Notes under the pieces: model-generated
The model's database searches: none
Told to the model about the DNA's origin: nothing
Seen by the model: only the letters and a program-made list of their open reading frames with translations
Translations under genes and position numbers: made by a program
In this document: positions 43,199 to 51,281 of the stretch, in pieces
How the letters are laid out: each line of letters opens with the position of its first letter
Numbering within the stretch: position 1 is the first letter of the stretch
Assembly: GCA_029573725.1 (NCBI GenBank)
Contig: JAKQDQ010000178.1
Coordinates: 531,929 to 595,928 of the forward strand
DNA: 64,000 nt
Source of the DNA: Verrucomicrobiota bacterium
GTDB lineage: Bacteria; Verrucomicrobiota; Verrucomicrobiia; Limisphaerales; JADLHS01
Direction: 5' to 3'

Positions 43199-44203
43199 AT
43201 GAAATGTTTCGTGACCGGCGCCTCGGGTTTTGTCGGCGCCAACCTGGTGCATGAACTGGTGGCGCGCGGCCATCAGGTCAAAGTGCTCCTGCGATCCGGG
43301 AGCGATCAACGCGGGCTGGCCGGCGTCACGGTGGAAGCGGTGACCGGCGACGTCGGCGATCGGGCCCGGTTGACCGCGGCCATGCGGGGCTGCGATTGGT
43401 GCTTTCACGTTGCGGCGAGTTATCATCTGTGGTTGCGCGACTATGCGCCGATGTATGCCGCCAATGTGACGGGCACGCGCAATGTTCTGGAAGCCGCGGG
43501 TGCGGCAGGTTGTTCCCGCATCGTCTATACCAGCACCGTGGGGTGCATCGGTTTGCCGAAACTGCGGGACGGATGCATCACGCCCACGGATGAAGCGACG
43601 CCCGTCAGCGAGGCCCAGATGAGCAATCACTACAAACGCTCGAAGTGGCGGGCCGAAGTCGTCGCGCGCGAACTGGCAGCCAGGGGACTGCCGGTGGTCA
43701 TCGTCAATCCGAGCGCCCCCATCGGACCGCGCGATGTCAAACCCACCCCCACCGGCCAGGTCATCGTGGACTTTCTCAATCGCGCCATGCCCGCGTTTCT
43801 TGACACGGGCCTGAACTGGGTGCATGTGCGCGACGTCGCGATCGGGCATGTCCTCGCCGCGGAGCAGGGGCGGATCGGGGAACGTTATATTCTCGGCAAC
43901 GCCGAAGGCAACTGGACCATGCGCGAAGCGTTTGCGGTGCTCGAGGAAATTTCCGGTGTGCCCGCGCCGCGCATCCGGATTCCGTACGGCGTCGCGCTCG
44001 GCGCCGCGTATGCGGCCGAAGCCGTGTCGGCACTCACCGGCAGACCACCCCGGGCGCCGCTCGGCGGGGTGCGCATGGCCAAATACAAGATGTTTTTCAA
44101 TCCGGCCAAGGCCATCCGCGAACTGGGACTGCCCCAGACGCCGCCCCGCCAGGCGCTCGCCGACGCCGTGGCCTGGTTTCGCGCGCACGGGCTGGCCCGC
44201 TAA
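43199..44203 (+). CDS. NAD-dependent sugar epimerase/dehydratase, HpnA-like
   Basis: The 334-residue SDR protein has the nucleotide-binding GASGFVGANLV motif (residues 7-17), Ser112 in TSTVG, and the YxxxK pair Tyr145/Lys149 in HYKRSKW. VVIVNPSAPIGPRDVKPTPTG is the characteristic hopanoid-associated sugar epimerase (HpnA) segment. HpnA proteins act on sugar nucleotides for hopanoid head groups, but no other hopanoid gene is seen here, so the role is uncertain. No signal peptide or helices; cytoplasmic. Confidence 0.82.
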   Translation: MKCFVTGASGFVGANLVHELVARGHQVKVLLRSGSDQRGLAGVTVEAVTGDVGDRARLTAAMRGCDWCFHVAASYHLWLRDYAPMYAANVTGTRNVLEAAGAAGCSRIVYTSTVGCIGLPKLRDGCITPTDEATPVSEAQMSNHYKRSKWRAEVVARELAARGLPVVIVNPSAPIGPRDVKPTPTGQVIVDFLNRAMPAFLDTGLNWVHVRDVAIGHVLAAEQGRIGERYILGNAEGNWTMREAFAVLEEISGVPAPRIRIPYGVALGAAYAAEAVSALTGRPPRAPLGGVRMAKYKMFFNPAKAIRELGLPQTPPRQALADAVAWFRAHGLAR

Positions 44204-44409: not shown

Positions 44410-44778
44410 ATGAAAATGAAATCATTCAAATGGATGGGAGCTGCGCTCGCGCTGGCGACCTTCGGCAGTCTTGGGGGCTGGGTTTCCACCGCGCAGGCCG
44501 CTGACGAAACCATCAAGGGCGAAATTGTGGATCTGATGTGCTACATCGATCATGGTGCGAAGGGCGGCAAACATGCCGATTGCGCCCAAAGCTGCATCAA
44601 GGGCGGGGGCCCGGTGGGCATTCTGACGGCAGACAACCAGCTGTATCTGGTAATTGGCGAACACAAACCCATCAATGACAAGCTCGCGCCGCTGGCCGCC
44701 AAAACGGTCACCCTCAAGGGCAAAGTGGTGGAACGCAACGGCATGAAGATGATCGAGAACGTTGAAATCCAAAAGTGA
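44410..44778 (+). CDS. Small secreted protein with Cys/His cluster, unknown function
   Basis: The 122-residue protein has a signal peptide (WMGAALALATFGSLGGWVSTAQA). Its mature part opens with IKGEIVDLMCYIDHGAKGG, then KHADCAQSCIKGGGPVGIL. Cys44, His48, His55, Cys58 and Cys62 are suitably placed to bind a metal or cofactor. The second half is beta-rich (LYLVIGEHKPIND, KTVTLKGKVVERNGMKMIE), an OB-like layout. I do not recognise a named family; similar small DUF-type proteins occur near heme or copper genes. The membrane protein at 44836 follows after 57 bases. Confidence 0.7.
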   Translation: MKMKSFKWMGAALALATFGSLGGWVSTAQAADETIKGEIVDLMCYIDHGAKGGKHADCAQSCIKGGGPVGILTADNQLYLVIGEHKPINDKLAPLAAKTVTLKGKVVERNGMKMIENVEIQK

Positions 44779-44835
44779 TCCCACTTTAACTTGGCGTCAC
44801 CGGCGTTGTCCGAATGCCGGTGACGTTCGCTTTCC

Positions 44836-45342
44836 GTGAACGAATTTTTCAAGACTCTGCAGCAGCCGGAATACGTGCATGTGCTGCTTAATCATCTGCC
44901 GATCATCGGCCTGTTTGTGGCATTGCTTGGCCTGGGCGCCGCGCTGTTTCTCAAGCCGCGCGCCCCGTTGTTTCTGACCCTGGCCCTGGTCGGTCTGATG
45001 GCGCTTTCCGTTGTGCCGGTCAAACGGTCCGGTGATCGCGGTGCGGACCGTGTTCTGGCCATGTCCGATGACGAGGGTCAGGCTTATTTGAAGTATCACG
45101 AACAGCTGGCGCAACGGTGGCTGTTCCTCTATCTGCTGACCGCGCTGGCGGCGGCGGGGACCTTCGTGGTGGGCTGGAAATGGCCCCGGCGGTTCCGGCT
45201 CGCCGCGAGCGGGGTTTTGTTGCTCGGTTTGGCCAGTCTCGTGGCGGGCGCGGTCATTGCCGATTACGGAGGGAAAATCCGTCATCGCGAGTTCCGTAAT
45301 GGTCCACCACCGGTCGTCACCACTGCGACGGACAACGGGTGA
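44836..45342 (+). CDS. Four-helix membrane protein, DUF2231-like
   Basis: The GTG start at 44836 gives 168 residues with about four hydrophobic helices. It opens EYVHVLLNHLPIIGLFVALL, which has two histidines before the first helix, similar to DUF2231-type proteins (HPxxVHFP or HxxLNHLP motifs that may bind heme or a metal). A loop (RSGDRGADRVLAMSDDEGQA) precedes the last two helices. The gene follows the Cys/His secreted protein, so a small redox or metal pair is possible. Function unknown. Confidence 0.7.
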   Translation: MNEFFKTLQQPEYVHVLLNHLPIIGLFVALLGLGAALFLKPRAPLFLTLALVGLMALSVVPVKRSGDRGADRVLAMSDDEGQAYLKYHEQLAQRWLFLYLLTALAAAGTFVVGWKWPRRFRLAASGVLLLGLASLVAGAVIADYGGKIRHREFRNGPPPVVTTATDNG

Positions 45343-45406: not shown

Positions 45407-46348
45407 TCAGGCTGGTACTTTGAGCTGCTTGACGATGTCCGCCACCACGCCGGAGGCGGTCAATCCGGAAAAGCGGGCCTGGGGTTGCATCACCAAGCGA
45501 TGGGCAATCACCGGCACGGCCAGCTCTTGAATCTGCTCGGGGGTCACAAAATCCTGGCCATCAAACAACGCCAGGGCCTGCGCGCCTTTCATCAACGCCA
45601 ATGAAGCCCGCGGGCTGGCGCCCAATTGCACCCCGTTGGCCGTCCGCGTGGCACTCACCAGGTCCACCACATAGCGCTTCAACTCGGCGCTAAACCGGAT
45701 GCCTTGCGCGGCGCGTTTGACCATGAGAATGTCCTGCAAGGTGGCGCAGCTGGTCAGGGATTCGAGCGGATGGCCGGTGGCCTGTGCGGTGAGCACCGTC
45801 ACCTCGTCGTCCGGCGGCACATAACCCAGCGTGAACTGCATGGCGAACCGGTCCATCTGCGCCTCCGGCAATGGATACGTGCCCCGAAATTCCACCGGGT
45901 TCTGGGTCGCAATCACGAAGAATACTTCCGCCAGATCGCGCCGTTCCCCGTCCACGCTGACCTGCCGTTCGCCCATGGCTTCCAGCAGCGCGGATTGGGT
46001 GCGGGGGGAGGCGCGATTGATTTCGTCCGCCAGCAAGATGTTCGTGAAAATCGGGCCCTCGTGAAAATGAAAGTGCTGGTCGCGCTGGCTGAAGATGGAG
46101 ACCCCCAAGATGTCGGAGGGCAGCAAATCCGGGGTGAATTGTACGCGCTTGAACCGCGCGTCCACGGAACGGGCCAGCGCCTTGGCCAGCGTGGTTTTGC
46201 CCGTGCCCGGAAAGTCCTCCAGCAAAACGTGCCCGCCGCTCGCCAGCGCCGCCAACAGTTTGCGGGTGGCGCCGGATTGGCCTTGCATCACCCGGCTGAT
46301 GTTGGTGGCCAGTTGTTGCAGGATCGTATGCGCGGAAAGTGCGTCCAT
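45407..46348 (-). CDS. MoxR-family AAA ATPase
   Basis: The 313-residue protein has Walker A in LLEDFPGTGKTTLAKALA (about 43-58) and Walker B in NILLADEINRASPRTQSALL (Asp108/Glu109). The MoxR-specific stretches FVIATQNPVEFRGTYPLPEAQ and DRFAMQFTLGYV follow, with a C-terminal AAA-lid. MoxR proteins assist maturation of partner complexes, usually with DUF58 and VWA genes nearby. None is in this window, so the partner is elsewhere. It is divergent from nagB with a 166-base spacer. Confidence 0.93.
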   Translation of the reverse strand: MDALSAHTILQQLATNISRVMQGQSGATRKLLAALASGGHVLLEDFPGTGKTTLAKALARSVDARFKRVQFTPDLLPSDILGVSIFSQRDQHFHFHEGPIFTNILLADEINRASPRTQSALLEAMGERQVSVDGERRDLAEVFFVIATQNPVEFRGTYPLPEAQMDRFAMQFTLGYVPPDDEVTVLTAQATGHPLESLTSCATLQDILMVKRAAQGIRFSAELKRYVVDLVSATRTANGVQLGASPRASLALMKGAQALALFDGQDFVTPEQIQELAVPVIAHRLVMQPQARFSGLTASGVVADIVKQLKVPA

Positions 46349-47993: not shown

Positions 47994-50900
47994 ATGCTTG
48001 CACCCAAAGCTCAGAGGCGTTGCCGCCGGTGGGAGGCCGCCACGCGTCGCTGCCCGCACCCATTCGCGCCGGGACCTTTGCACTCCGTCCCGTCGGCCAC
48101 CGGCCGTTCGTGGCTCCGGTTCGCCGCCTGGTGTTGCGGTCTGGCGCTGGGGCTGACCTCCTGGGCGCAGGACGGATTTGTGTCCATTTTTAACGGGCGC
48201 GATCTTGAAGGCTGGGAGGGCAAGCCCGGCTGGTGGCGGGTGGAGGACGGCGCGATTACGGCCGAGAGCACCCCCGAAAAGCCATGCACCAAGCATAATT
48301 ACCTCATCTGGCGCGGCGGGGCGCCGGCCGATTTTGAGCTGCAATTTGAGTTTCGCATCCGGGGCGGCAACTCCGGCGTGCAATTCCGCAGCCGCGAGGT
48401 TGAGGATTGGGACATGCGCGGTTATCAGGCGGACATCGAGGCCGGCCCGGAGTGGACCGGCGCGCTCTTCGAGCACGCCCGCGGCGGGATTGCCATGCGC
48501 GGGGAGTCGGTGATCATCGCTCCCGACGGCAGCAAGCAAACGACGAATTTTGCGTCCGGCAGCGATTTGTTCCAGCACCTCCGCACGAATGATTGGAACC
48601 AATACCGCATTGTGGCGCGCGGGCCGGAAATCCAGCTTTTCATCAACGGCGTGAAGATGTCCCAGGCGGTGGACCGGCAGACGGGGCAGGCGGCGGCGCA
48701 GGGTCTCATCGGTCTGCAAATGCATCCGGGACCGCCGATGAAAGTCCAGTTCCGCCATTTGAAGCTCAAGGAATTCACCGCCGCGGATCGCGCGACGCCG
48801 CCGGAAAAATTGACCGTGCCGCCCGGCTTCAAGGTCGAATTGGTTTATGCCCCGAACCGGGCCACCGAGGGTTCGTGGGTCAGCATGTGTGTTGACGCCA
48901 AAGGACGGTTGCTCTTCTCGGGGCAGTATGATGAAGGGCTCTACCGGCTTACGCCGCCGGCCTTGGGGGATGATCCCGCGCGGACGCGGGTCGAAAAGAT
49001 CAACGTGGATTTGAGCGGCGCCCAGGGTTTGTGCTGGACGTTTGATGGTTTATATGCGCTCGTTTCCAAGAATGGCAGGACTCCGAGCGGACTTTATCGG
49101 GTGCGCGACACCGACGGCGACGATCAATTGGATGCCGTGGAATTGTTGCGCGCGCTGGAAGGCGGCGGCGATCACGGCTGGCACGGGGTGCTGCCCGGGC
49201 CCGATGGGCAATCTCTTTACGTGGTCGCCGGCAACCAAACTGTGCCGCCGGCCTTGGAGGCTTCACGCGTTCCGTTGGTGTGGGGTGAGGATCAATTGCT
49301 GCGCCGGCTGCCGGACGCGGGCGGATTCATGACGGATGCGCTCGCTCCCGGGGGAGTGATCTATCGCGTCAGTCCCGACGGTCGAAACTGGGAAATGATC
49401 GCCAGCGGCTTCCGCAACAGCTACGACGCGGCGTTTGATCAGAACGGGGAATTATTCACTTACGACGCGGATATGGAATGGGATTTCGGCACGCCCTGGT
49501 ATCGGCCCACGCGGATTTGTCACGTCACCAGCGGTGCGGAATTTGGCTGGCGCAACGGCAGCGGCAAGTGGCCGGCCTGGTATCCCGACAGCGTTCCGGG
49601 CATTGTGAACATCGGCCCGGGTTCGCCGACCGGTGTGGCGTTTGGTTACGCCACCGCCTTTCCCGAGCGCTATCGCAACGCCCTGTTCGCCGGCGACTGG
49701 ACGTTCGGGCGCATCTACGCGGTTCACCTGGCGGATGCCGGGGCAACGTATCGCGGCGAGGCGGAGGTTTTTCTTTCCGGTGTTCCTCTGCCCGTGGTGG
49801 ACCTCGTGGCCCATCCCCTGGATCACGCGCTGTATTTCATCACCGGAGGCTGGCGCATCCAGACCGGCGTCTATCGGGTGATCTACACCGGACCGGCAGC
49901 GGCGGGTGCGCCGGCAACGAAATTGCCGCGCCCGCCCGGACAGCTCGCGCGGCTGAAATTGGAGGCGTTGCACGGGCACGCGAGCGAAGGTGCGTTGACG
50001 ACGCTCTGGCCGTATCTCGGGAGCGCTGACCGGGCGTTGCGTTATGCCGCACGCGTGGCGCTCGAATGGCAGCCGGTTTCCACCTGGCGCGAACGGGCGC
50101 TCCAGGAAACCCATCCGGCCGCCTCCCTGACCGCCCTGCTGGCCCTGAGCCGGGTTTCCAGTCGCGACGAATGGCATCGCCGGCCCACGGATCCCGCCCC
50201 GGACCGGGCGCTGCAACACCAGATTCTGGCGGCGCTGGCCCGCCTGGATTGGGCGGGCTTGTCCGCGGAACAGCAAGCCGATCTGCTGCGCAACTACGCG
50301 GTTTGTCTGACCCGGTTCGGCCCTCCCGATTCCGCGGGCCGCCGGGCGCTGCTCACGCGGCTTGAGCCGTGGTTCCCGGGGCCGACCCGCGAAGTGAACC
50401 GGCAGCTGTGCGAGTTGCTGGTTTACCTGCAATCGTCGCAGGTGGCCCCGGTCGCGTTGCGCCTGTTGGAGGAAGCCCCGACCCAGGAGGAGCAGATTGA
50501 CCTGGTGAAATCGTTGCGTGTCCTCAAGGCGGGCTGGACCCCGTCCTTGCGCCGCGAGTATTTTGGGTGGTTTCAAAAGGCCGCGGCGTACCGCGGCGGC
50601 GCCAGTTTCCGCGGGTTCATCAAACAGATCCGCCAAGACGCGCTGGCCGCGCTGACGTCCGCCGAGCGTGATGCCTTGGCGGATGTGCTGGCGCTCCCGG
50701 AAACAACCGCCGCAACGGAGGCCGCCTTCTTTAAGGGCCGGACGGCCACAGATTGGACCGTTGATCAGCTCGCGCCTGCCTTGGCGGCGGATTTGCATGA
50801 GCGGGATTTTGCGCGCGGCCGAAAACTGTTCTCTGCGGCTTCCTGTTTCCAGTGTCATGCGCTTGCGGGCGAGGGTGGTGCGGTCGGACCAGACCTGACT

Positions 50901-51281
50901 CGCGTGGCCGGACGGTTTAGTCCGCGGGAGCTGTTGGAATCCATTCTTGAACCCAATCGGGCCATCAGCGACCTGTACCAAAACGTGCGCATCACCAAAC
51001 GGGATGGCGAGGTGGTTGTGGGACGGATTGTTTATCATCTACCGGACGGTTCGGTGAACGTGAATCCGAACATGCTTGATCCGGCCCAGGTCATCGCGGT
51101 GAAACGGAGCGAGATCGCGAAAATTGAACCCTCACCCGTTTCGCCCATGCCGGAGGGGTTGTTGGCTCCGATGCAACAGGACGAAATTCTCGATCTGCTG
51201 GCCTATTTGCTTGCCGGTGGTGATCCGGCGCACCCAATTTTCAAAGCGAGCCGGCCCGCCGTCAAAACCGCCGGGCAATAG
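47994..51281 (+). CDS. Fusion of DUF1080, PVC-type dehydrogenase and cytochrome-c-like heme domains
   Basis: The 1095-residue protein has a signal-like segment (WLRFAAWCCGLALGLTSWA, residues about 39-57). Residues 60-265 are a DUF1080 domain (FVSIFNGRDLEGWEGKPGWW, NSGVQFRSREVEDW, YQADIEAGPEWTGALFEHA). Residues 280-640 are a PVC membrane-bound dehydrogenase-type beta-propeller (VPPGFKVELVYAPNRATEGS, DALAPGGVIYRVSPDG, GFRNSYDAAFDQNGELFTYD). A helical, HEAT-like stretch follows. Near the end SCFQCHALAGEGGAVGPDLT (Cys about 951, His about 955) is the heme site of the PVC heme-binding domain. It probably oxidises a sugar-like compound and passes electrons on, bound outside the cytoplasm. Confidence 0.85.
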   Translation: MLAPKAQRRCRRWEAATRRCPHPFAPGPLHSVPSATGRSWLRFAAWCCGLALGLTSWAQDGFVSIFNGRDLEGWEGKPGWWRVEDGAITAESTPEKPCTKHNYLIWRGGAPADFELQFEFRIRGGNSGVQFRSREVEDWDMRGYQADIEAGPEWTGALFEHARGGIAMRGESVIIAPDGSKQTTNFASGSDLFQHLRTNDWNQYRIVARGPEIQLFINGVKMSQAVDRQTGQAAAQGLIGLQMHPGPPMKVQFRHLKLKEFTAADRATPPEKLTVPPGFKVELVYAPNRATEGSWVSMCVDAKGRLLFSGQYDEGLYRLTPPALGDDPARTRVEKINVDLSGAQGLCWTFDGLYALVSKNGRTPSGLYRVRDTDGDDQLDAVELLRALEGGGDHGWHGVLPGPDGQSLYVVAGNQTVPPALEASRVPLVWGEDQLLRRLPDAGGFMTDALAPGGVIYRVSPDGRNWEMIASGFRNSYDAAFDQNGELFTYDADMEWDFGTPWYRPTRICHVTSGAEFGWRNGSGKWPAWYPDSVPGIVNIGPGSPTGVAFGYATAFPERYRNALFAGDWTFGRIYAVHLADAGATYRGEAEVFLSGVPLPVVDLVAHPLDHALYFITGGWRIQTGVYRVIYTGPAAAGAPATKLPRPPGQLARLKLEALHGHASEGALTTLWPYLGSADRALRYAARVALEWQPVSTWRERALQETHPAASLTALLALSRVSSRDEWHRRPTDPAPDRALQHQILAALARLDWAGLSAEQQADLLRNYAVCLTRFGPPDSAGRRALLTRLEPWFPGPTREVNRQLCELLVYLQSSQVAPVALRLLEEAPTQEEQIDLVKSLRVLKAGWTPSLRREYFGWFQKAAAYRGGASFRGFIKQIRQDALAALTSAERDALADVLALPETTAATEAAFFKGRTATDWTVDQLAPALAADLHERDFARGRKLFSAASCFQCHALAGEGGAVGPDLTRVAGRFSPRELLESILEPNRAISDLYQNVRITKRDGEVVVGRIVYHLPDGSVNVNPNMLDPAQVIAVKRSEIAKIEPSPVSPMPEGLLAPMQQDEILDLLAYLLAGGDPAHPIFKASRPAVKTAGQ

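Follow-up and report, generated by a model that had tools for sequence, protein, structure and literature searches.

Two groups of described proteins come closest to the gene pair reported here: CusF and SilF, which bear comparison with its exported member P0001, and DUF2231 (PF09990), which bears comparison with its membrane member P0002. CusF and SilF are the periplasmic chaperones for Cu(I) and Ag(I) in the Cus and Sil efflux systems. The mercury transporter MerC, a small four-helix membrane protein involved in metal resistance, is a further point of reference. The metal site of SilF consists of His63, Met74, Met76, and Trp71, as given in the available part of its description (PMC10656224). 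Like CusF and SilF, P0001 is small and exported and lies beside CusA-type pumps in some relatives, and its model points to an OB-type barrel; unlike SilF, its putative site is of the Cys3His type and sits on inserted helices. P0002 resembles DUF2231 proteins in its four predicted helices, with a motif of the H-x4-H-x-P type starting helix 1, a His opening helix 3, and GG after helix 4, and a DUF2231 gene is the partner of a P0001 relative in Phycisphaera; unlike DUF2231, the P0002 family has its own C-terminal R-H-x-E-F-R motif. In the available parts of the literature, PMC5877670 included, no description of the P0001–P0002 pair was found. The pair is probably an undescribed copper-handling accessory, most likely CusF-like in its working and linked to copper, with other ligands, another partner, and a putative metallochaperone role.

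Genomic setting of the pair

The analysis started from a window of 64 kb within a Verrucomicrobiota draft genome (4.28 Mb, 187 contigs, 96% complete). P0001 and P0002 lie where the first-pass annotation put them, on the same strand and separated by 57 bases (Table 1), between an upstream gene for an NAD-dependent epimerase (43199-44203) and a downstream gene on the opposite strand for a MoxR-type AAA ATPase (45407-46348). Farther along the window, 47994-51281 encodes a 1095-aa protein that combines a 3-keto-disaccharide hydrolase domain with a cytochrome c domain. The promoter candidate upstream of P0001 has 9/12 matches, and one such candidate was found against 0.4 expected.

The intergenic gap is largely taken up by a stem-loop, the stability of which was equaled by none of 200 shuffled sequences. 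A stem also stands between the genes in four of five relatives compared (L002, z -3.1; L009, -4.3; L010, -2.9; L012, -1.75), L005 having none. The stem-loop may damp expression of P0002, and P0001 may be made in excess over its partner. As a separate observation, the stem sequences differ between relatives, and terminator-like U-runs follow the stems of L009 (1431-1497) and L012 (1795-1898).

Table 1. Positions of the features of the P0001–P0002 locus within the window.
Feature	Position	Strand	Description
P0001	44410..44778	+	122 aa, exported; predicted OB fold, Cys3His core (C44, H55, C58, C62) plus H48, H85
Codons C44 to C62, conserved cluster C-x3-H-x6-H-x2-C-x3-C	44539..44595	+	Sequence, alignment, AlphaFold2 helices
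P0002	44836..45342	+	168 aa, GTG start; predicted four-helix membrane protein, DUF2231-related
15-bp stem-loop, P0001–P0002 gap	44793..44827	+	-26.2 kcal/mol, z -4.9
Possible sigma-70-like promoter TTGACT-16-CATACT, upstream of P0001	44340..44367	+	Weak

The exported protein and its putative metal site

P0001 carries a Sec-type signal peptide ending in STAQA-ADE; the first-pass annotation, which described a secreted protein with C44, H48, H55, C58, and C62, was accurate in both the export and the residue numbers. P0001 did not score above the threshold of any Pfam or NCBIfam family, and a Pfam scan of it gave no match up to E 10. PDB sequence searches, by protein and by profile, returned nothing. 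In 11 aligned homologues, C44, H48, H55, C58, C62, and H85 are invariant at a mean column identity of 58%, so the conservation of these residues lies above chance. Variation of the named Cys and His, which had been put forward as a possible counter-finding, was not seen among aligned members of P0001's own group, the 'CY.DH' type, within a wider family. That family includes other short types, i.e., a 'CYLEGGD' group (G100, G041, G092) and G191, and a long group of ~250 aa whose members often start with MNDEFYIGW and have the site in the C-terminal half. Verrucomicrobia MAGs are among the named relatives retrieved with P0001. Proteins of the 'MNDEFYIGWE...' kind with the same Cys3His site were seen at L016-L022, L024, L025, L028, and L041-L044; L020, the one long relative tested, had no Pfam or NCBIfam match.

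In a wider alignment of 40 relatives, selected with a motif that includes the site and hence circular for the motif residues, G37, D41, C44, H55, C58, and C62 are present in 40/40. With a pattern that fixes the three Cys and leaves the His free, H55 is kept in 41 of 42 distinct relatives; the odd short type G191 has Asn at this position. H48 is kept in 21 of the 42 and is confined to the P0002-associated subfamily, where H48 and H85 are both invariant. The core of the family is thus four residues, to which the partner group adds two His; of the five-residue cluster originally proposed, C44, H55, C58, and C62 stand family-wide, but H48 falls outside. The domain contains exactly three Cys in 39/42 sequences, an odd number, so that not every Cys can be engaged in a disulfide. 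Mature P0001 contains no Trp, and the wide family shows no conserved Met.

An AlphaFold2 model of P0001 (7 sequences; mean pLDDT 81, with blocks of ten at 81-96 from residue 31 on) places C44 and H48 in helix 42-48 and H55, C58, and C62 in helix 53-64, both helices being inserted between strands 1 and 2. Foldseek matched this model weakly to OB-type folds (best E 0.015, none at E<=0.001). The VIA-align matches were likewise mostly OB folds (best Z 6.4) and included SilF-Cu(I) (Z 5.6, rmsd 2.9, 70 aligned), all with Z under 8, a range that may reflect only a common arrangement. The model supports an OB fold for P0001; the fold matches do not prove kinship with CusF or SilF. Membership in CusF was rejected, as P0001 lacks the CusF ligand set (His, two Met, and a capping Trp), neither a CusF model nor any PDB chain matched it in sequence, and no CusF model match was obtained for 11 homologues.

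Several further candidates were set aside. ExtJ (NF040942), from a Geobacter selenite/tellurite cluster, was matched below cut-off by one member only (E 0.04) over residues 1-33, which are the signal peptide; lipoprotein signal peptidase and fimbrial matches were sub-threshold noise. L027 lacks Cys and matched by chance within a long protein; it was dropped from all counts.

The membrane partner and its association with P0001

No Pfam or NCBIfam match over cut-off and no PDB sequence match was found for P0002, the GTG start of which aligns with the starts of relatives. Its model shows four membrane helices (mean pLDDT 79), and H15, H20, H88, and H150 are invariant in 8 aligned partners at a mean column identity of 43%, in agreement with the four-helix, His-bearing membrane protein first proposed. 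The motif HVLLNHLP is present as annotated but occupies residues 15-22 (H15 to P22) and is not the literal opening of the protein. Across 63 distinct relatives, H15 is found in 62 and H88 in 61; 54 keep H150 and 48 keep H20, which is replaced by Pro in 14.

Over the 31 best rows of the alignment, the mean net charge is +2.0 for loop 1-2 and +2.2 for loop 3-4, as opposed to -2.6 for loop 2-3. By the positive-inside rule, both termini of P0002 should face the periplasm (N-out/C-out), which would place the four conserved His at the periplasmic face. A lipoprotein-like signal peptide, identified by eye ahead of helix 1 in L103, supports a periplasmic N terminus for the family.

The P0002 profile reaches true DUF2231 proteins (L075, PF09990 E 7e-22). 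Its hhalign comparison with six DUF2231-type proteins, five of which had been found with the P0002 profile itself, gave a probability of 97.8 over 146 columns (E 7.6e-13). H15, H88, and GG145-146 align across the 63 relatives, DUF2231-type members included. P0002 gave no PF09990 match, none of 8 homologues reaches the PF09990 cut-off, and distant relatives of P0002 yield sub-threshold DUF2231 matches (E 0.014 and 0.03). Judged by profile comparison, P0002 is a divergent DUF2231 relative below the Pfam cut-off; the earlier statement that the pair fits into no known family is correct by the cut-offs of Pfam and NCBIfam but overlooks this distant relationship. Membership in MerC (PF03203) was rejected at 21.4 bits vs. 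a cut-off of 27.6 (E 4e-4), and FAT domain and oxidase subunit III matches were dismissed as the usual matches of four-helix bundles.

Twenty genomes or contigs were found to hold a P0001 of the 'CY.DH' type (G000, G051, G047, G059, G097, G153, G158, G163, G187, G199, G217, G297, G311, G410, G428; L002, L003, L004, L005, L007), each genome being counted once; L006 is apparently the same as G311:C1 (both 113,214 bases). A P0002 relative is present in 19/20, G097 being the sole exception, and the proposed search for neighboring pairs found the genes adjacent, with P0002 directly downstream, in 13/20; the other suggested counter-finding, that no relative keeps the two genes side by side, did not occur. 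The other short P0001 types (G191, G100, G041, G092) had no P0002 match in four of four. In a draw of 288 genomes, with thresholds of E<1e-20 for the P0001 type and E<=1.4e-24 for P0002 relatives, 12 held a short P0001-type gene, 20 a close P0002 relative, and 11 both (Fisher p 8e-14 at the genome level and 2e-8 at the genus level, uncorrected for phylogeny). Because the genes are unlinked in 6 of these 11 genomes, their tie is not merely one of inheritance as a single locus. Over two draws, close P0002 relatives occurred without P0001 in 11 genomes (G300, G335, G362, G412, G192, G174, G148, G413, G425, G130, G039). In genomes of genus g102 (2.2-2.5 Mb; L081-L083, G187), two P0001-type genes and a single P0002 gene occur, all unlinked.

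Copper neighborhoods and competing readings

At L004 and L095, the gene order is CusA-type pump, P0001, P0002, with the pair directly after the pump. For the L095 pump, the score against PDB CusA is 1040 bits, vs. 505 against ZneA. Markers (CusA, copper-ATPase, multicopper oxidase, HMBD) lie within roughly 10 kb at 8 of 31 close P0002-relative loci, compared with 0/20 control stretches of 19.5 kb (390 kb), all taken from genomes holding P0002 relatives (p 0.012). The positive loci are G130, which belongs to the same family as the window genome, G039, G428, G300, G335, G362, G311 (second copy), and L004. The marker seeds were identified by Pfam and supplied by L004, G428, G311, and G335, which makes the scan circular in part; the markers at G130, G039, G300, and G362 do not depend on these seed loci. 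The count splits into 8/24 for the first set of loci and 0/7 for the later set (G000, G297, G199, G311 first copy, G412, G174, G425), and five further stretches fetched with the latter, which are P0001 loci, had no marker either.

No copper marker was found at 23/31 P0002 loci, and only 2/13 adjacent-pair loci (L004, G428) adjoin copper genes. The pair in the window (L177) has no copper marker within 10 kb; the nearest CusA-like gene in its genome (G000) is 50 kb away, and upstream of that gene what look by eye like genes for an HMBD-bearing adaptor and an outer-membrane factor were noted. The CusA-like seed was matched by pumps in 18/18 genomes tested, and the presence of a CusA-like gene alone is therefore uninformative.

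The P0002 homologues of copper loci have His- or Met-rich tails. At L086 (G311:C14, 3707-5467), a P0002 relative with His/Met-rich tails is followed by a lipoprotein-like protein that contains repeated 'MDHSKMPGM' units, by an outer-membrane factor, and by an HMBD-tailed multicopper oxidase. At L071-L076, DUF2231-type proteins are encoded beside two-component response regulator and sensor genes which, judged by eye, look like metal-sensing pairs.

A search of 72,556 plasmids with P0001 gave a sole match, on pPSMK1 of Phycisphaera mikurensis (Planctomycetes; E 2e-5, 36% identity); the corresponding search with P0002 gave none. On pPSMK1, the P0001 relative comes first, a DUF2231 protein second, and a Rieske protein third, flanked on one side by a cluster of copper oxidase, heavy-metal ATPase, and metal-sensitive regulator genes and on the other by a TolC-RND cluster. 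This copper-resistance island also holds a four-helix copper-binding protein. The P0001 relative keeps the C, H, C, and C of the core and has added His-rich ends. A search of the available literature for DUF2231 in connection with copper found nothing.

Taken as a periplasmic accessory for handling soft metals, the pair would most likely serve Cu(I) (and Ag(I)), a reading to which we give about an even chance. In this mechanism, exported P0001 would fold as a small OB barrel and bind metal at the Cys3His site on its two short helices between strands 1 and 2, P0002 would offer a second, His-rich site at the periplasmic face of the inner membrane, and P0002 would take metal from P0001 or give metal to it. 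The metal would thereby reach a Cus-type RND pump or other acceptors, or be kept off targets. The first-pass annotation had suggested a new metal or redox module with ligands fit for heme, copper, or iron. Its metal half gains indirect backing from the invariant Cys and His, the co-occurrence, the His/Met-rich tails, and the copper-efflux neighbors; for its redox half there is no more than a hint, from Rieske genes close to other branches, and heme found no specific support.

That redox half corresponds to an electron-transfer module, which we regard as unlikely. P0001 would hold a redox metal site, P0002 would act as a quinone site or as a small b-type cytochrome in the membrane, and the two would cooperate with Rieske-type proteins, perhaps in the reduction or oxidation of periplasmic metal ions. 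A gene in which a ferric-reductase-like membrane domain and a Rieske domain are fused does lie close to long P0001 relatives at 14/16 loci (directly upstream in L016 and L024), and a Rieske gene follows the pair in Phycisphaera, but 39 scanned neighborhoods of the short P0001 type or P0002 type in this phylum contained no Rieske match (1/20 in controls). The Cys3His domain may therefore have a redox function in one branch and move metal in the other. The four conserved His of P0002, predicted at one membrane face, also speak for this module, yet no similarity to a cytochrome b family exceeded cut-off, and the cytochrome oxidase subunit III folds in the VIA-align list for P0002 are helical-bundle matches, which mean little at Z under 13.

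Somewhat less likely still is service to another soft or transition metal (mercury, zinc, nickel, or cobalt), with copper loci as one setting of several. Cys3His sites suit zinc or mercury as well, and many loci lack copper genes; the sub-threshold MerC match of P0002, however, is partial (residues 91-142) and occurs in 1/8 family members, and the neighbors that can be named belong with copper or silver (a CusA-like pump, a copper oxidase, and an HMBD ATPase). A disulfide or thiol role for the P0001 Cys, as a redox sensor or thiol carrier that binds no metal, is improbable despite the periplasmic location and the placing of Cys58 and Cys62 about one helical turn apart in the model, given the joint conservation of three Cys and a His, spaced i, i+3, i+7 within a single predicted helix, the near-constant count of three Cys, the absence of a thioredoxin fold among P0001 matches, and the copper neighborhoods.

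The copper-handling reading can be joined with the long relatives in a broader one, which we hold tentatively and consider possible, if less probable than the accessory role itself. P0001 would then represent a second kind of metal-binding OB fold, with Cys3His on inserted helices, that works in two settings: with a DUF2231-type partner in periplasmic copper and silver traffic and, as the second domain of a longer protein near a ferric-reductase/Rieske protein, in metal-linked electron transfer. A search of the available literature on DUF2231 found nothing beyond a database of cysteines in DUF proteins. If the reading is true, a conserved Cys3His OB family would bring different chemistry, and DUF2231, a family of predicted membrane proteins so far uncharacterized, would receive its first role, that of a membrane metal site. 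The copper neighborhoods would also suggest a first function for the DUF2231 superfamily that is concrete enough to test.
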